NCBI GenBank assembly: GCA_900315015.1
Contig: OMXJ01000002.1
Coordinates: forward strand, 1-64,000
Reading direction: 5' to 3'
From: an uncultured Eubacteriales bacterium
Lineage (GTDB): Bacteria > Bacillota > Clostridia > Lachnospirales > Lachnospiraceae
DNA: 64,000 nt
The notes beneath the pieces were generated by a model. That model did no database searches. It saw nothing but the letters and a program-made list of their open reading frames with translations, and was not told where the DNA came from. A program made the translations under genes and the position numbers. Of this stretch, positions 10,009 to 18,295 are shown piece after piece; position 1 is the first letter of the stretch; each line of letters starts with the position of its first letter.

Positions 10009-11595
10009 TTACTGTCCTGATGCTCCATAGTTTGCAAGTACTCTTGCTGATGGATCATCTACGTTGCAGCCCGGCCAGTTCTTGTTTGGCATCCAGAAAT
10101 CTACTACCATGTCAGACTGTCCTGGATAATACTTTTCAAAGATTTCTCTATAGAGAAGACTTTCCTTTGTAAATGGTCTTGCATGCTCATATTTAGCTAT
10201 TTTCTCTTCAAATTCTTCATCTGAATAGAAGCTTTCTGCATATTCTTTAAGATCATTTACAAGAGAATGACCTACTGCATCTGAAAATGCTGCCTTTTCT
10301 CTTTGAAGAATAGATTCCGGAAGGCATTTATCCTCTTCAAAGGCATGTCTTAAAAGATACTTTCCTTTTCCGTAAACATTCATCTTTACTGAAGGATTAA
10401 GGCTCATTACATAATCAACAAAATCAAGATCTCCAAATGGTACTCTTGCCTCTAATGAGTTAACCGAAATACATCTGTCAGCTCTTAATACATCATACAT
10501 ATGGAGTTCTCTTACTCTCTTTTCAGCCTCCATCTGGAATTCATCAGGTGATGGCGCAAAATCTGTATATTTATATCCAAAGAGCTCATCAGATACTTCT
10601 CCTGTGAGAATTACCCTGATATCTGTATTTTCATGTATGTACTTACATACAAGATACATTCCCATGCTTGCTCTAGTTGTTGTAATATCATAGGTTCCAA
10701 GAGTCTTGATTACAAAATCAAGTGCCTCTATTACGTCTTCTCTTGTTATGATTACATCTGTATGCTCTGCACCGAGAAACTCTGCAACCTGTCTTGCATA
10801 CTTAAGGTCTATAGCATCAATGTCCATGCCTATTGCAAAGGTCTTAATAGGCTTATTTAGTATCTTTGCTGATACTGCGCAAACAAGGCTTGAATCAAGA
10901 CCTCCTGAAAGAAGGAAGCCAACCGGTGCATCTGCATCAAGTCTCTTTTCAATGCCCTTAATTAAAAGGTCATGGATCTTTTTAGATGCTGTGTCTGCAT
11001 CATCTAAGATAAGCTTTCCTGAATCTGCAGGATCTCTATACTGCACGAACTTTTCTCCGTCATAGTAATGTCCTGGCGGGAATGGCATTACCTTTGCGCA
11101 TACTGAGATGAGATTCTTAGGTTCACTTGCAAAGGCAATGGAGCCATCTGATAAATAACCATAATAAAGAGGTCTTATTCCGATCGGATCTCTTGCTGCA
11201 ATGAATTTTTCCTTTTCTGCATCATACATAATAAGTGCATACTCAGCATCGAGTTTTTCAAACATTGAAAGACCATATTCCTTGTACATTGGAAGAAGGA
11301 TTTCGCAATCTGATTCACTAACAAAGCTATATCCCTTACTTATAAGATTATCCTTTTCTTTTCTAAAGCCGTATATTTCACCATTACATACTATACTGCT
11401 TTCTCCATGGTGAAATGGCTGCATTCCATTTTCATTAAGTCCCATTATTGATAATCTATTAAAACCAAGCCATCCTTTTCCTGCTTCTTCAAAGCGGCTC
11501 ATGTCAGGGCCTCTTGATATCGTCTTTGCAAGACATCTTTTGGCTTCTTCTTCAGTTATTGCTTTTCTACTAGTAAATCCGATAATTGAACACAT
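10009..11595 (-). CDS. asnB: Asparagine synthase, glutamine-hydrolysing
   Basis: 528 residues from ATG 11595. A second in-frame ATG two codons upstream (11601) is rejected. The Shine-Dalgarno AAAAGGGGG is only 1 nt from it but 7 nt from 11595, and the later start puts Cys at position 2, as required for the N-terminal nucleophile of class II amidotransferases (MCSIIGF). The glutaminase domain (about 2-190) is followed by the ATP-pyrophosphatase synthetase domain with SGGLDSSLV. It makes asparagine from aspartate, glutamine and ATP. It is divergent from gltB. Its leader carries a terminator and an overlapping hairpin covering the ribosome site, so it is probably controlled by attenuation. Confidence 0.93.
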   Translation of the reverse strand: MCSIIGFTSRKAITEEEAKRCLAKTISRGPDMSRFEEAGKGWLGFNRLSIMGLNENGMQPFHHGESSIVCNGEIYGFRKEKDNLISKGYSFVSESDCEILLPMYKEYGLSMFEKLDAEYALIMYDAEKEKFIAARDPIGIRPLYYGYLSDGSIAFASEPKNLISVCAKVMPFPPGHYYDGEKFVQYRDPADSGKLILDDADTASKKIHDLLIKGIEKRLDADAPVGFLLSGGLDSSLVCAVSAKILNKPIKTFAIGMDIDAIDLKYARQVAEFLGAEHTDVIITREDVIEALDFVIKTLGTYDITTTRASMGMYLVCKYIHENTDIRVILTGEVSDELFGYKYTDFAPSPDEFQMEAEKRVRELHMYDVLRADRCISVNSLEARVPFGDLDFVDYVMSLNPSVKMNVYGKGKYLLRHAFEEDKCLPESILQREKAAFSDAVGHSLVNDLKEYAESFYSDEEFEEKIAKYEHARPFTKESLLYREIFEKYYPGQSDMVVDFWMPNKNWPGCNVDDPSARVLANYGASGQ

Positions 11596-11602
11596 ACGCA
11601 TT

Positions 11603-11628
11603 CCCCCTTTTTTGCAGCAAAAAAGGGG
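11603..11628 (-). promoter_or_regulatory. Ribosome-site-sequestering hairpin of asnB, competing with the terminator
   Basis: In the asnB transcript CCCCUUUUUU (11628-11619) can pair perfectly with AAAAAAGGGG (11612-11603 region, including the Shine-Dalgarno) across the loop GCUGC. The CCCC and U-tract are also the 3' arm and tail of the terminator at 11619-11660, so the two structures exclude each other. Confidence 0.6.
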
Positions 11629-11660
11629 TCAGAAGATAGACTATGCACTCTTCTGGCCCC
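11619..11660 (-). terminator. Leader terminator (attenuator) of asnB
   Basis: On the minus strand GGGGCCAGAAGA (11660-11649) pairs with TCTTCTGACCCC (11636-11625) with one G-U pair, followed by six T. It lies between the asnB promoter and its ribosome site, and its 5' arm begins about 15 nt after the predicted start site. Confidence 0.8.
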
Positions 11661-11682
11661 TTTGCCTTTTTAATGATTTCAA

Positions 11683-11711
11683 ATCATAGCACCTGGTTTT
11701 GATTTTGTCAA
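11683..11711 (-). promoter_or_regulatory. asnB promoter
   Basis: TTGACA (11706-11711), 17-bp spacer and TATGAT (11683-11688) on the minus strand. Transcription should start near 11676. Confidence 0.85.
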
Positions 11712-11827: not shown

Positions 11828-11856
11828 TTGACAAATAAAAATCTTTGCGATACAAT
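11828..11856 (+). promoter_or_regulatory. gltB promoter
   Basis: TTGACA (11828-11833), 17-bp spacer and TACAAT (11851-11856). The predicted start is near 11863, about 8 nt before the leader terminator. A second, weaker TATAAT at 11940-11945 without a clear -35 could give a terminator-free transcript. Confidence 0.85.
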
Positions 11857-11870
11857 ACACGCAAGTTCGA

Positions 11871-11919
11871 GGCAACGGCGCCTATATAGGCGTCGTTGCC
11901 CTTTTTTTGTTCAAAAAAA
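11871..11919 (+). terminator. Promoter-proximal terminator in the gltB leader
   Basis: GGCAACGGCGCC (11871-11882) pairs with GGCGTCGTTGCC (11889-11900) with one G-U pair around the loop TATATA, followed by seven T (11902-11908). After GTTC comes a complementary A7 (11913-11919) able to capture the U-tract. The same order is seen in the asnB leader. Full-length gltB mRNA from the upstream promoter would need antitermination. Confidence 0.85.
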
Positions 11920-11984
11920 TAAATTTATCTAATTATGGCTATAATTGAATTCTGACTTAATTTTCTAAAAAAGGGGCTGTGAAT

Positions 11985-14900
11985 ATGTGTAACAATGAAT
12001 TTGTTAACCTAAGTAAATATTCTTCGGGTTCGGATCCTATAAATCAGATTATGCATGATTCATGTGGTATTGGCTGTGTTGTTGACATTAAAGGTCGTAA
12101 GACCCACTCTACAGTTGATGATGCATTAAAAATCGTTGAAAAGCTTGAACACCGTGCCGGTAAGGATGCTAGTGGAAAGACTGGTGACGGCGTTGGAATT
12201 CTTCTTCAGATTTCTCATAATTTTTTCTCTAAGGCTGCTAAAGAAGCCGGTATCGAGCTTCCTCCCGAGCGTGAATACGCGGTAGCAATGATTTTCTTTC
12301 CTCAGGACAAGGTCAAGAGAGCTCGTCATAAAAAACTTCTTGAAATTCTTCTCGAAAAGGAAGGCATCCCTTTCCTTGGTTGGAGAAAGGTTCCAATCAA
12401 TAGTGAAATTCTTGGTGAAAAAGCTCTTGGCTGCATGCCTTCTATCTGGCAGTGCTTCGTTAAGATTCCTATGAATACTAAGACAGGCATTGATTTTGAT
12501 AGAAAGCTTTATGTTCTCCGCCGTGAATTCGAGCAGTCAATTAATTCTGAAACTTATGTATGCTCTTTTTCAAGCCGTACTATTGTATATAAGGGAATGT
12601 TCCTCGTTGGACAGCTCCGCAGATTCTATTTAGATCTTGAAGATAAAGATTATGAGTCTGCAATCGGAATGGTCCACTCTCGCTTCTCTACTAATACAGA
12701 TCCTAGCTGGCAGAGAGCACATCCAAATAGAATAATCCTTCACAATGGTGAAATTAATACAATAAGAGGCAACATCGACAGAATGCTTGCCCGCGAAGAG
12801 ACAATGAGCTCTGAGCTTCTTTCAGGCACTGATTTTGAAAAGGTTCTTCCAGTTGTTGATAATACCGGTTCAGATTCAGCTATGCTTGATAATACACTTG
12901 AATTTCTTATGTTCAGTGGTTGCCCTCTTCCTAAGGCTCTTATGCTTACTATTCCTGAGCCTTGGAATAAGAATGAAGACATGCCAAGACTTAAGAGAGA
13001 CATGTATCATTACTATGCAACAATGATGGAGCCTTGGGATGGCCCTGCTGCTATCCTCTTCTCAGATGGCGACATTGTTGGTGCTACTCTTGATAGAAAC
13101 GGACTTAGACCTGTAAGATATTACATTACTGATGATAGCCGTCTTATCCTTTCTTCTGAGGTAGGTGTCCTTGATATCGCACCAGAACATATTGTTAAAA
13201 AGTCAAGACTTATGCCTGGCCGTATGCTTGTAGTTGACACTGTTTCAGGAAGAATAAAGGATGATGAAGAATTAAAGAACGGATATGCAGTAAGCCATCC
13301 TTATGGTGAATGGATTGATTCTGAGCTTGTTACTTTAAAGTCTCTTCCTATTCCTAATAAGAAGGTTCTTGAAAGCTCAGAAGAAAACCGTAACAGACTT
13401 TATCAGGCCTTTGGTTATTCCTGGGAAGGCATAAAGGACATAATCCTTCCTATGGCAAAGCTTGGCTCTGAGCCTACTGCTTCTATGGGTGTTGATACTC
13501 CTCTTGCTGTTCTTTCTGAACATCACAGACCATTGTTTGAATATTTCAAGCAGATGTTCGCTCAGGTTACTAACCCTCCTATCGATGCAATTCGTGAGGA
13601 GATTGTTACTGATACCACAGTATATGTTGGTTCAAGTGGTAATCTTTTAAGTGATAAACCATCTAACTGCCATGTACTTCAGATAAACAATCCTATTTTA
13701 ACTAGTATTGATCTTTTAAAAATCAAGTCCTTGAACATGCCTGGTCTTAAGGCTGCTGTTGTTTCTATTCTTTATTATAAGAATACTTCACTCGAACATG
13801 CCATTTCTAAGATGTTCAATGATTGCGATAATAAATATAGAGATGGTGCTAATATCATCATTCTTTCAGATCGTGGCATCGATGAGAACCACACTGCTAT
13901 CCCATCACTTCTTGCTGTTTCTGCTCTTGAGCAGTATCTTGTACGTACCAAGAAGCGCACACAGCTTTCTGTTATCCTTGAAAGCGGTGAGCCATACAGC
14001 GTTCACCATTTCGCTACTCTTTTAGGCTTTGGTGCTCAGGCTGTAAATCCTTACCTCGCACAGGAATGTATTGAGGAATTAGTTGATAAAAATCTTCTTG
14101 ATAAGGATACTCACGCAGCAATCAACGATTTCAACAACGCCGCTCTTCACGGAGTTGTTAAGATTGCTTCTAAGATGGGAATATCCACAATTCAGTCTTA
14201 CCAGAGTGCTCAGATTTTCGAAATCGTTGGTATCTCTAGAAAGGTTGTGGATGAATATTTTACAAATACCATAAGCAGAATAGACGGTATTACCTTAAAG
14301 GAAATTGAAGAGGATGTCCTCTACCGTCATGATCTCGCTTTTGATCCTATGGATCTTCCTACTGATCTTGTTACTTCTACAAGCGGAACTCATAAGCTTC
14401 GTGCTGAGAGCCGTGCTGAGGATCATATGTTCAATCCCGAGACTATTCTTATGCTTCAGAAGGCTACACAGACAGGTGATTACAAACTCTTTAAAAAATA
14501 TTCAGCACTAGTTGATGATGATAAGATACCTCACACCTTAAGAGGTCTTCTCACCTTTGATTATTCAAATGTTACTCCTATTTCAATAGATAAGGTAGAA
14601 CCGGTTTCTTCTATCGTAAAGCGTTTCAAGACTGGTGCTATGTCTTATGGTTCTATTTCTAAGGAAGCACATGAATGTCTTGCAGAGGCCATGAACAGAA
14701 TCGGCGGACGCTCTAATTCAGGTGAAGGCGGAGAAACTCTTGAAAGACTTGGTACTATTAAGAATTCAGCAATCAAACAGGTTGCTTCTGGTAGATTCGG
14801 TGTTACTAGTGAATATCTGGTAAGTGCAAAGGAAATACAGATAAAAATGGCTCAAGGCGCAAAACCTGGTGAGGGCGGTCTCCTTCCTGGAAAGAAGGTA

Positions 14901-16550
14901 TGGCCTTGGATAGCTCATACTAGACTTTCAACTCCTGGTGTTACTCTTATCTCACCTCCTCCTCATCATGACATTTATTCTATTGAGGATTTGGCACAGC
15001 TTATCTACGATTTAAAGAACGCTAATAAAAATGCTGATATTTCAGTAAAGCTTGCAAGTGAGGCCGGTGTTGGTACTATTGCCTGCGGTGTTGCTAAAGC
15101 AGGTGCTCAGACAGTTCTTATTTCAGGTTATGACGGCGGTACTGGCGCTGCTCCAGAGAGTGCGATCCATGGCTGCGGTCTTCCTTGGGAACTTGGTATT
15201 GCAGAGGCTCACGAGGCTTTAAGAAAATCCGGTCTTAGAAGCAGAGTTAAGCTTGAAACCGATGGTAAGCTCATGACAGGTAAGGATGTGGCTGTTGCTT
15301 GTATCCTTGGCGCTGAGGAATTCGGTTTTGCTACTACTCCTTTAGTTACTCTTGGCTGTGTAATGATGAGAGTCTGTAATTTAGATACCTGTCCTATGGG
15401 TATTGCTACTCAGAATGAAAAGCTCAGAAAGAATTTCCGTGGAAAGCCTGAATATGTAATCAATTTCATGGAGTTTGTTGCAGAGGAGGTAAGAGAAATC
15501 CTTGCTTCTCTTGGTTTAAAGAGTCTTGATGAGCTTGTTGGCAGATGTGATCTTTTAAAGGTAAAAGAAAAGCAGATTACACGTAAAGCTGAAATGCTTG
15601 ATGTAAGCTATCTTTTAAGAACAGCTAGTGATACTAATGATGCTACTCTTCCTACACATGCAGATCCAAATGATAAGTATGATTTCAAACTTGAAGAGAC
15701 CATAGATGAAAAAGAGCTTTTAGGTCTTCTTGATTCTAAAAATAAGCCTTCTAAGGAATATTCTTTAAATTGTAATAATAGATCAGTTGGTACTCTTCTT
15801 GGTGCAGAAATCACAAGACGCCATGGTCATTCCTTAAGCGATGATACCTATCACTTAAAGTTCCGCGGCGGAGCTGGTCAGTCTTTCGGTGCCTTTATTC
15901 CTAAGGGCCTTACCCTTGAGCTTGAAGGCGATTCAAATGACTATTTCGGAAAAGGTCTTTCAGGCGGAGAGCTTATTGTTTATCCTGATAGAAAGTCAAA
16001 GTTCAATGCCGCTGATAATATTGTTATCGGAAACGTTGCTCTTTACGGTGCAACTAGCGGACGCGCTTTTGTAAACGGAAGTGCCGGCGAGCGTTTCTGC
16101 GTAAGAAACTCTGGTGCTACTGCTGTTGTTGAAGGTGTCGGTGAGCATGGCTGCGAATACATGACTGGCGGTACTGTTGTTGTTCTTGGTAGAACAGGCA
16201 GAAACTTTGCTGCTGGTATGAGCGGTGGTACTGCTTATGTTCTTGATTTTGAACATGATTTATATAGAAGATTAAATAAACAGATGGTTTCCATGGAGCC
16301 TGTTACTGAGGCCATGGACATTGAAAAAATAAAAGAGCTTCTTCTTGCACATGTTAAGGCTACTGGTTCTAAACGTGCTCAGGGAATTCTAGATGATTTT
16401 GATAATAAAGTATATGATTTTAAAAAGATCATCCCTCGCGATTACAGCACAATGCTTGAGCGTATTGCAAGCTGTGTTGCAAAGGGCATGAGCACTGAAC
16501 AGGCCGAACTTGAAGCTTTTAGTCTTAGTTTAACGGAAGGAGGAAGATAA
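11985..16550 (+). CDS. gltB: Glutamate synthase large subunit
   Basis: 1,521 residues from ATG 11985. A GTG at 11979 is only 2 nt from the AAGGGG site and is rejected. The enzyme makes two glutamates from glutamine and 2-oxoglutarate. The amidotransferase nucleophile is Cys27 (HDSCGIG) after a short propeptide. The glutaminase domain runs to about 430. The FMN-binding synthase domain (about 800-1200) contains GGRSNSGEGGE, AKPGEGGLLPG and the [3Fe-4S] cysteines in CVMMRVCNLDTCPMG (about 1125-1138). A GXGXG-type beta-helix domain lies at about 1270-1480 (GGTVVVLGRTGRNFAAGMSGG). gltD starts 2 nt after the stop, so the subunits are translationally coupled. Upstream is an unusual leader terminator. 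Confidence 0.96.
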   Translation: MCNNEFVNLSKYSSGSDPINQIMHDSCGIGCVVDIKGRKTHSTVDDALKIVEKLEHRAGKDASGKTGDGVGILLQISHNFFSKAAKEAGIELPPEREYAVAMIFFPQDKVKRARHKKLLEILLEKEGIPFLGWRKVPINSEILGEKALGCMPSIWQCFVKIPMNTKTGIDFDRKLYVLRREFEQSINSETYVCSFSSRTIVYKGMFLVGQLRRFYLDLEDKDYESAIGMVHSRFSTNTDPSWQRAHPNRIILHNGEINTIRGNIDRMLAREETMSSELLSGTDFEKVLPVVDNTGSDSAMLDNTLEFLMFSGCPLPKALMLTIPEPWNKNEDMPRLKRDMYHYYATMMEPWDGPAAILFSDGDIVGATLDRNGLRPVRYYITDDSRLILSSEVGVLDIAPEHIVKKSRLMPGRMLVVDTVSGRIKDDEELKNGYAVSHPYGEWIDSELVTLKSLPIPNKKVLESSEENRNRLYQAFGYSWEGIKDIILPMAKLGSEPTASMGVDTPLAVLSEHHRPLFEYFKQMFAQVTNPPIDAIREEIVTDTTVYVGSSGNLLSDKPSNCHVLQINNPILTSIDLLKIKSLNMPGLKAAVVSILYYKNTSLEHAISKMFNDCDNKYRDGANIIILSDRGIDENHTAIPSLLAVSALEQYLVRTKKRTQLSVILESGEPYSVHHFATLLGFGAQAVNPYLAQECIEELVDKNLLDKDTHAAINDFNNAALHGVVKIASKMGISTIQSYQSAQIFEIVGISRKVVDEYFTNTISRIDGITLKEIEEDVLYRHDLAFDPMDLPTDLVTSTSGTHKLRAESRAEDHMFNPETILMLQKATQTGDYKLFKKYSALVDDDKIPHTLRGLLTFDYSNVTPISIDKVEPVSSIVKRFKTGAMSYGSISKEAHECLAEAMNRIGGRSNSGEGGETLERLGTIKNSAIKQVASGRFGVTSEYLVSAKEIQIKMAQGAKPGEGGLLPGKKVWPWIAHTRLSTPGVTLISPPPHHDIYSIEDLAQLIYDLKNANKNADISVKLASEAGVGTIACGVAKAGAQTVLISGYDGGTGAAPESAIHGCGLPWELGIAEAHEALRKSGLRSRVKLETDGKLMTGKDVAVACILGAEEFGFATTPLVTLGCVMMRVCNLDTCPMGIATQNEKLRKNFRGKPEYVINFMEFVAEEVREILASLGLKSLDELVGRCDLLKVKEKQITRKAEMLDVSYLLRTASDTNDATLPTHADPNDKYDFKLEETIDEKELLGLLDSKNKPSKEYSLNCNNRSVGTLLGAEITRRHGHSLSDDTYHLKFRGGAGQSFGAFIPKGLTLELEGDSNDYFGKGLSGGELIVYPDRKSKFNAADNIVIGNVALYGATSGRAFVNGSAGERFCVRNSGATAVVEGVGEHGCEYMTGGTVVVLGRTGRNFAAGMSGGTAYVLDFEHDLYRRLNKQMVSMEPVTEAMDIEKIKELLLAHVKATGSKRAQGILDDFDNKVYDFKKIIPRDYSTMLERIASCVAKGMSTEQAELEAFSLSLTEGGR

Positions 16551-16552
16551 TT

Positions 16553-17974
16553 ATGGGAAAACCAACTGGATTTATTGAGTATTCTCGTCTTGAGAACACT
16601 TCAGCTTCTCCTTCTGTAAGAATAAAGGATTATAATGAATTCCACACTCCTCTTTCTGAAGGAGATAGAAAAAAGCAGTTTGCTAGATGCATGAACTGCG
16701 GTGTTCCATTTTGTGAGGCTGGTATTACTTTAGATAAGGAGCGCTTTGGCTGCCCTCTTCACAATCTCATTCCTGAATGGAACGAACTTATGTGGCTTGG
16801 AAATGTCGATCTTGCAGTCAGAAGACTTCTTAAAACAAATCCTTTCCCGGAGTTTACCGGAAGGGTCTGCCCTGCTCCTTGTGAGCATGCCTGCACCTGC
16901 AAACTTGTTTTGAACTCTCCTATTACAATCAGGGAAAACGAGTTATCTATTATAGAAAAAGCTTTCGAGGATGGCCTCATTAAGGCCGAAAAGCCTAAGG
17001 GCAGATCTGAAAGCTCTGTTGCAATTATAGGTTCTGGACCTTCTGGTTTATCGGCTGCTTATTGGCTGAATAAAAGAGGTCACAAAGTTACAGTTTTTGA
17101 AAAGGCTAAAAAGCCTGGTGGTCTTTTGACCTACGGTATTCCGGAAATGAAGCTTTCCTGGTCAGTAATTGAGCGCAGAATTAAGCTTCTTACAGAAGAA
17201 GGCATTGAGTTTAAAACCGAAACCGAAGTCAAAGATATCAAGAAATTAAGAGAAAGCTTTGATGCTGTTATAGTTTGCTGCGGAAGCCGTTCTCCTAGAA
17301 AGCTTGATATTGAAATGGTTGAGGGAGATGCCAAGACAGATAAGAAAGCTTCTAAAGCAGGAGCTTCTAAAAAGAGTTCTAGCTCTCCTACCGGTATCAT
17401 GTATGCACTTGATTACCTTACTGCTTCTGCAAAGGATGTGCTTGGTGAAGAAAAGCTATCCTCTTTCCTTTCTGCAAAGGGAAAGAATGTTGTAATAATC
17501 GGTGCTGGTGACAGTGCTTCCGACTGCGTTGCTACTGCTATCAGACAGGGAGCTAAAAGTGTAAGTCAGCTCATCAGAAAGCCAGCTTCTTTCTATGAGA
17601 AAACGGATGCTTCAGGTAATAAAACACTTCCTTCTGATTATGCACATGAAGAAGCTGAGGCCATTTTTAAGAAAGATATCAGAAGCTTTTCTACCGAATG
17701 TAGTAAAGCATACTTTACAAATAATTCCTTAACGGAAATCGAATTAAAGACGCAGCCACCTAAAAAAATCCCTTGCGAGCTTTTAATTATCGCATCAGGT
17801 TTTGCTGGTCCTGATGAAACTGCCGAAAAGCTTATGAATAATAAGCTAGATGGCATCTTCTCTGCTGGTGACATTAATACCGGCGCATCACTTGTTGTTA
17901 CTGCTATCGCTGATGGCCGCAGCGTTGCAGCTAAATGTGATGAATATCTTACCGGATATAGAAGCTTTTTGTAA
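16553..17974 (+). CDS. gltD: Glutamate synthase small subunit
   Basis: 473 residues. It passes electrons from NAD(P)H through FAD and Fe-S clusters to GltB. N-terminal cysteine motifs CMNCGVPFC, FGCPLHN and GRVCPAPCEHACTC fit two [4Fe-4S] clusters. The FAD Rossmann motif IIGSGPSGLSAAYW starts near residue 159. The second nucleotide-binding motif near 315 reads IGAGDSASD instead of the common GGGDTGxD. A Lys/Ser-rich insert of about 20 residues (around 257-280) sits before it. The end has the typical SAGDINTGASLVV flavin motif. GGAAGGAGG overlaps the end of gltB. No terminator is obvious before glnN. Confidence 0.95.
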   Translation: MGKPTGFIEYSRLENTSASPSVRIKDYNEFHTPLSEGDRKKQFARCMNCGVPFCEAGITLDKERFGCPLHNLIPEWNELMWLGNVDLAVRRLLKTNPFPEFTGRVCPAPCEHACTCKLVLNSPITIRENELSIIEKAFEDGLIKAEKPKGRSESSVAIIGSGPSGLSAAYWLNKRGHKVTVFEKAKKPGGLLTYGIPEMKLSWSVIERRIKLLTEEGIEFKTETEVKDIKKLRESFDAVIVCCGSRSPRKLDIEMVEGDAKTDKKASKAGASKKSSSSPTGIMYALDYLTASAKDVLGEEKLSSFLSAKGKNVVIIGAGDSASDCVATAIRQGAKSVSQLIRKPASFYEKTDASGNKTLPSDYAHEEAEAIFKKDIRSFSTECSKAYFTNNSLTEIELKTQPPKKIPCELLIIASGFAGPDETAEKLMNNKLDGIFSAGDINTGASLVVTAIADGRSVAAKCDEYLTGYRSFL

Positions 17975-18295
17975 CATTTTCATTGGCAAATAGACTAGTT
18001 CACGATAAAACTTTTCTCTTTAGCTGTGGACTGGCTTATTTCATAGATAGCTGTATCAGTTGCTAAAGCCCTCTGACTATTCGTCAGATCACACTTCTAG
18101 TGAACCGAACCCTCGCTGGAAGAAAAAAAAAATAACACATTAAACATAACCCTATATTCCTTTATGGTTTCAGCCGTGTACCTAATATACGAAGTGTAAC
18201 CATAAATGTGCGGCTGGTACAGCTTTTATGTGCTATTACTGAGTATTTTTATTATGAAAGGTAAAATTATATAGAGTAAAAAGGAGGAAAATTGT
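17975..18295 (+). ncRNA. Candidate structured 5' leader RNA of glnN
   Basis: The 321-nt gap has no gene but many complementary segments. Upstream half: GTTCAC (17998-18003) with GTGAAC (18100-18105), CTTTAGC (18018-18024) with GCTAAAG (18062-18068), and TCTGAC (18072-18077) with GTCAGA (18083-18088), together a multibranch shape. Downstream half: TTTATGGTT (18161-18169) with AACCATAAA (18198-18206), and CAGCCG (18171-18176) with CGGCTG (18211-18216), crossing as in a pseudoknot. A possible promoter TTGGCA/TAAAAC lies at about 17983-18010; if used it would cut off the first arm. I cannot match this to a named riboswitch; the known cyanobacterial glutamine motif is not seen. AAGGAGG before 18296 is the ribosome site. 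Confidence 0.5.

Follow-up and report, generated by a model that had tools for sequence, protein, structure and literature searches.

The window, i.e., the whole stretch of 64,000 nucleotides of Lachnospiraceae DNA that was analysed, carries the genes for both subunits of glutamate synthase and, divergent from them, an asnB-like gene (Table 1). The gltB start codon is the ATG at 11985, and a GTG at 11979 is also in frame. The first-pass annotation of this DNA had the gltB promoter firing straight into an intrinsic terminator, and this was borne out: the -35 box (11828-11833) and the -10 box (11851-11856) are separated by 17 bp and match the consensus at 11 of 12 positions, and a strong terminator follows the promoter after at most 15 nt. 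The terminator hairpin and its run of seven T also stood, whereas the stem, previously given as 12 bp, has 13 pairs, nine of them G-C, enclosing a loop of four bases, with an energy, taken alone, of approximately -24 kcal/mol. With the RNA start set 7 nt past the -10 box, i.e., near 11863, the predicted RNA folds with a z of -3.4 relative to dinucleotide shuffles.

Table 1. Leaders, leader elements and associated genes at the gltB and asnB-like loci of the window.
Feature	Position	Strand	Detail
gltB promoter, TTGACA-17-TACAAT	11828-11856	+	promoter scan
gltB leader intrinsic terminator	11871-11908	+	stem 11871-11900, then C and T7 (11902-11908)
Single ANTAR-type hexaloop hairpin (P2, candidate antiterminator), AGGC[AACGGC]GCCT	11870-11883	+	A1 = 11874, G4 = 11877
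gltB, glutamate synthase large subunit	11985-16550	+	GATase_2, Glu_syn_central, Glu_synthase and GXGXG domains
gltD-like small subunit	16553-17974	+	one operon with gltB
asnB-like promoter, TTGACA-17-TATGAT	11683-11711	-	promoter scan
Single ANTAR-type hexaloop hairpin, asnB-like leader, GGC[AAAGGG]GCC	11655-11666	-	
R1 model match (hexaloop, terminator and U-tract), asnB-like leader	11615-11668	-	37.4 bits
asnB-like asparagine synthase with N-terminal glutamine amidotransferase	10009-11601	-	

The first-pass annotation saw no room for a classical upstream antiterminator, but the view that there is none proved wrong: the candidate antiterminator overlaps the terminator's own 5′ arm. It is a hairpin with a six-base loop and a stem of only 4 bp, and its fold and that of the terminator are mutually exclusive. 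ANTAR antiterminators recognise a hexaloop with A1 and G4 that is carried by a short stem whose closing pair is conserved (PMC3369931). Both the gltB leader and the asnB-like leader carry an A1/G4 hexaloop, and neither stem is below the motif's minimum of 3 bp, that of the asnB-like leader having only 3. The divergent asnB-like leader, which is of equal layout and has its terminator at approximately 11662-11623 on the minus strand, was the first sign of a common device.

Comparison of the leader across related genomes, a check put forward with the first description, confirmed that the hexaloop and terminator unit recurs. Among the gltB loci gathered from relatives, many have a strong promoter followed 4-27 nt on by a terminator, and a 5′ element of the GC-AAAGGC-GC type is common to the terminator stems; written out, it is a small hairpin whose loop has six bases, e.g., GAAGC[AAAGGC]GCTTC, AGAAC[AAAGGC]GTTCT and GTGAC[AAAGGC]GTCAC. 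A descriptor for a hexaloop hairpin that is closed by a C-G pair and overlaps a terminator identified 33 units in the 102 upstream regions scanned, versus a mean of 0.3 in dinucleotide shuffles, and 24 units with a promoter no more than 30 nt away, versus none in the shuffles; A2 and G5 were also present in 30 of the 33 matches. In the alignment of the 33 leaders, columns 12-16 pair with either columns 1-5 or columns 40-44, an overlap with the terminator 5′ arm as in the P2 hairpin of ANTAR targets, and both pairings covary, the covariation of the terminator spanning 12 pairs. The inner three pairs of the hexaloop stem were demanded by the selection of the leaders; pair 2/15, which was free of that selection, is intact in 30 of 33 and is represented by four pair types. 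Predicted leaders of this kind are not peculiar to the source genome: hundreds exist in the Lachnospiraceae, mostly ahead of nitrogen-assimilation genes, the counts being dependent on our in-house descriptor and a model built from hexaloop-selected leaders. Five loci (L059, L067, L081, L085 and L088) have upstream of gltB a subclass, GTCGC[AAWGGR]GCG, whose terminator stem extends over the hexaloop hairpin's 5′ strand as well.

A search of the source genome with covariance model R1 produced matches with a hexaloop ahead of amtB, the asnB-like gene, gltB, the gene for an amino-acid-type ABC binding protein, gdhA and asnA, all of them nitrogen-assimilation or amino-acid-nitrogen genes. The promoter scan identified a promoter for every one of these leaders except that of the ABC binding protein, which does have a correctly placed TATAAT. 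In relatives, leaders also lie ahead of glnN, purF-like, carA, PII-like and ABC transporter genes, as judged by eye from translations. Two kinds of R1 match in the source genome were set aside, i.e., those lacking a hexaloop, which look like ordinary terminators, and reverse-strand matches paired with forward ones, which are ordinary bidirectional terminators with no hexaloop. The glnA and glnN genes of the source genome were also rejected as members, as there is no hexaloop leader at either. The long leader ahead of the window's glnN (type III glutamine synthetase; 17975-18295) has no ANTAR unit and no match near threshold in an Rfam scan, unlike glnN in many relatives, which does carry an ANTAR leader.

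The source genome encodes a single ANTAR (PF03861) protein (G000:C28:25227-25367), and its gene lies immediately behind glnA (type I glutamine synthetase), a linkage within 1.5 kb that was found in 27 of 30 loci of relatives. The linkage to glnA and the C-terminal position of the ANTAR domain (61.2 bits, residues 131-177) are the two characters of a NitR-type regulator. In 150 genomes of the family, 131 with an ANTAR protein and 19 without (some of the latter incomplete), R1 matches at E ≤ 1e-4 occurred in 97 of the 131 and none of the 19 (Fisher 2e-10, kinship ignored), and at E ≤ 1e-3 in 114 and 4, respectively. The AlphaFold model (pLDDT 94) has a receiver fold plus ANTAR, the same combination as in EutV, and among solved structures it most closely resembles RNA-bound EutV (6ww6). 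Lys149, Glu160, Met172 and Tyr164 of EutV matter for RNA binding (PMC8934654); residues aligned with the first three are present and invariant in 23 homologues, the Tyr164 position is a His in the source protein and mostly a His in the homologues, and EutV Arg168/175/177 are not conserved in the source protein.

Unlike EutV, which has a phosphorylatable Asp54, the 23 aligned homologues all lack a phospho-acceptor Asp where receiver strand 3 ends; the source protein reads ALVICGYR there, and the Pfam Response_reg score of the latter is under the cut-off. The ANTAR protein of L117 (1111-1656) and its homologues in L112-L141 have a receiver fold without this Asp. These features point to an ANTAR protein that would operate independently of a kinase. 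The receiver is apparently closed to ordinary phosphorylation and its gene accompanies glnA; for these reasons we consider it a reasonable idea that glutamine synthetase may govern the activity of the ANTAR protein. Such gating, if real, would have a logic like that of feedback-inhibited glutamine synthetase and TnrA in Bacillus.

With a probability of roughly 85%, we favour the reading of the gltB leader as an attenuator that responds to nitrogen and is run by the genome's single NitR-type ANTAR protein, with the same switch serving asnB, amtB, gdhA, asnA and the amino-acid ABC transporter. At the level of sequence, the promoter, the hexaloop, the overlapping terminator, the covariation of both hairpins, the common regulon, the co-occurrence with ANTAR, the glnA linkage and the lack of a second transcribed hexaloop all argue for it. 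Control of read-through by a protein had been one of the options raised in the first-pass annotation, and the ANTAR-type loop and co-occurrence make it the most likely one. In the proposed mechanism, RNA synthesis would begin at about 11863. If the ANTAR protein were inactive or absent, the 5′ arm would join the terminator and transcription would end after approximately 45 nt. Under nitrogen shortage, the protein would bind AGGC[AACGGC]GCCT, the hairpin that emerges before any other, and keep it closed, and the closed hairpin would withhold the 5′ arm from the terminator, allowing gltBD to be transcribed. Nitrogen limitation is the probable signal because of the composition of the regulon and the precedent of NitR of Clostridium saccharobutylicum.

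When the gltB RNA was folded step by step as it lengthens, 14 nt being taken as hidden in the polymerase, the result was consistent with this order of events. Between polymerase positions +34 and +43 the hexaloop hairpin has the lowest energy, and from +44/+45, when the polymerase is in the U-tract, the terminator hairpin wins; in the other members the hexaloop hairpin appears at approximately +32 to +36 and the terminator wins at approximately +47 to +65. The hexaloop hairpin folds before the terminator and therefore only needs to be held. Positioned at the start of the RNA, it would stand in for a recruitment hairpin.

A difficulty for an attenuator with one hexaloop is that EutV-type antitermination requires two, P1 and P2 (PMC3369931, PMC8934654). 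Deletion of P1 ablated EutV induction, and changes to the linker were also harmful (PMC3369931), because of which one hexaloop might not suffice. A structural study of EutV found that the binding site was reducible to a single hexaloop, yet that both were needed for antitermination, with P1 acting as a recruitment hairpin and the ANTAR dimer having to contact first one hexaloop and then the other if termination is to be prevented (PMC8934654). It could then be argued that the true start lies farther upstream and that a P1 is transcribed, and an upstream hexaloop does occur in a few relatives (L017, L033, L192, L195 and L201). Against this, no A1/G4 hexaloop closed by a C-G pair was found upstream of the gltB or the asnB-like hexaloop, and P1-like upstream matches numbered just six in 100 leaders, and several of these belonged to tandem units; in L192, L195 and L201 the upstream element is a full hexaloop and terminator unit, i.e., tandem attenuators precede one gene. 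A near-consensus promoter is also fixed close to the hexaloop: the end of the -10 box is 5-17 nt from the hexaloop stem in 73 of the 100 leaders, versus approximately 5% in shuffles, with a median of about 10 nt and a sharp peak at 8-12 nt. With the -10 box 8-12 nt ahead, the hairpin would begin no more than about ten bases from the RNA start, and with the box so close a P1 could not be transcribed. A second hexaloop inside the terminator that would restore the dual motif was considered and rejected, as the consensus loop was present there in only 3 of 100 leaders, and any A1/G4 loop in 12 of 100 versus 10.8 in shuffles. We consequently regard a dual-hexaloop leader at gltB as unlikely. The P1 of the dual motif was not found in these leaders, whose predicted transcribed part has one hexaloop, and in nearly all of them a single predicted recognition hairpin lies at the very beginning of the RNA. 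A separate case is L205, which has hexaloop leaders on both strands (- 1505 and + 1652), one of them with a second consensus hexaloop within its terminator stem.

Control without an ANTAR protein, e.g., by a small-molecule-binding RNA, by U-tract/A-tract pairing or by a different RNA-binding protein, would be compatible with a signal that is not fixed by a known receiver phosphorylation site, and it might draw on the ability of the terminator 3′ arm to pair with the Shine-Dalgarno region in the two window leaders. However, no Rfam family matched the leader at gathering score or came near it, a 45-nt leader has no space for an aptamer, and the loop letters, the C-G closing pair and the ANTAR co-occurrence all favour ANTAR. 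The U-tract/A-tract pairing, which had been offered earlier as a means of control, is not general: a run of five A directly follows the U-tract in just 10 of 74 related leaders. Such non-ANTAR control thus seems very improbable to us. A general control through base-pairing between the terminator 3′ arm and downstream (Shine-Dalgarno) sequence was likewise discarded, the pairing being only marginally stronger within a leader's own pair (-10.8 kcal/mol) than in swapped pairs (-10.2 kcal/mol); it is strong in the gltB and asnB-like leaders and not in the regulon or in relatives. After read-through into the asnB-like gene, CCCCTTTTTTGC and GCAAAAAAGGGG (within 11602-11660, minus strand) pair as a hairpin that covers the Shine-Dalgarno sequence, and this leader may possibly have a translational layer on top, which the other leaders lack.

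The promoter and terminator also delimit a discrete RNA of about 45 nt, which could in principle be a small RNA acting in trans while gltB is transcribed from another promoter. Recurrence of the unit ahead of nitrogen genes speaks against this, as does the covariation that maintains the alternative hexaloop fold, needless for a simple small RNA, and no downstream promoter was supported: the TATAAT at 11940, suggested initially as a second promoter, has no -35 partner and was absent from the promoter-scan output. We give the small RNA hardly any credence. A phage search with the region produced no match.

Antitermination of nitrogen genes by ANTAR proteins, as in the favoured attenuator, is a known kind of mechanism, and what differs is the predicted form with one hexaloop at the start site, for which no description was found in the openly searchable literature. 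As described by a citing paper, NitR of C. saccharobutylicum was reported to act by antitermination on GS/GOGAT genes (glnA/gltAB) under nitrogen limitation (Stutz et al. 2007, cited in PMC6316151). The likeness extends to the type of regulator, the GS/GOGAT-cycle targets and antitermination under nitrogen limitation, with the ANTAR gene here located behind glnA; the differences are that amtB, asnA/asnB, gdhA and transport are also targeted and that one start-site hexaloop is used, a comparison that rests on the citing description of NitR and to which leader architecture and receiver state do not extend. Predicted ANTAR regulons at glutamate synthase genes in Desulfotomaculum were found with a dual-hairpin model (PMC3369931), and those leaders likewise precede glutamate synthase and other nitrogen genes, whereas the leaders described here are without the first hairpin. 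With the EutV/EutW system of the Enterococcus faecalis eut genes they share the A1/G4 hexaloop, the conserved closing pair and a P2 over the terminator 5′ arm (PMC3369931, PMC8934654); the difference is that EutV leaders have P1 and P2, with loops at approximately +29 and +53 in eutP, and the leaders here have one hexaloop at approximately +6 to +14. In its logic alone, the proposed switch is like LicT/SacY-type antitermination, in which one protein-stabilised hairpin also lies over a terminator; the protein and the RNA site, a RAT of 29-30 nt, are unrelated.

The authors of the EutV structural study called for work on single hexaloops (PMC8934654), and the leaders described here are natural, numerous and very short one-hexaloop cases, so that the question is open to direct test in an RNA of about 45 nt. 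They also outline a coherent predicted nitrogen regulon for the Lachnospiraceae, bacteria abundant in the gut and rumen, and an apparently kinase-independent ANTAR protein with a gene linked to the glutamine synthetase gene. A bolder extension, which we offer tentatively and consider rather doubtful, is that the nitrogen regulon of the whole family may rely on start-fixed, one-hexaloop antitermination with no recruitment hairpin, by a phosphorylation-free ANTAR protein whose degenerate receiver would be gated by the neighbouring glutamine synthetase. Under this extension, the recruitment hairpin would be dispensable because the hexaloop is the first structure out of the polymerase.

Weaker hexaloop and terminator units were also observed ahead of an uncharacterized membrane protein in the source genome (C31:71798-71862, minus strand) and, near position 168 on the minus strand of L145, before an ORF resembling a PucR-type regulator.
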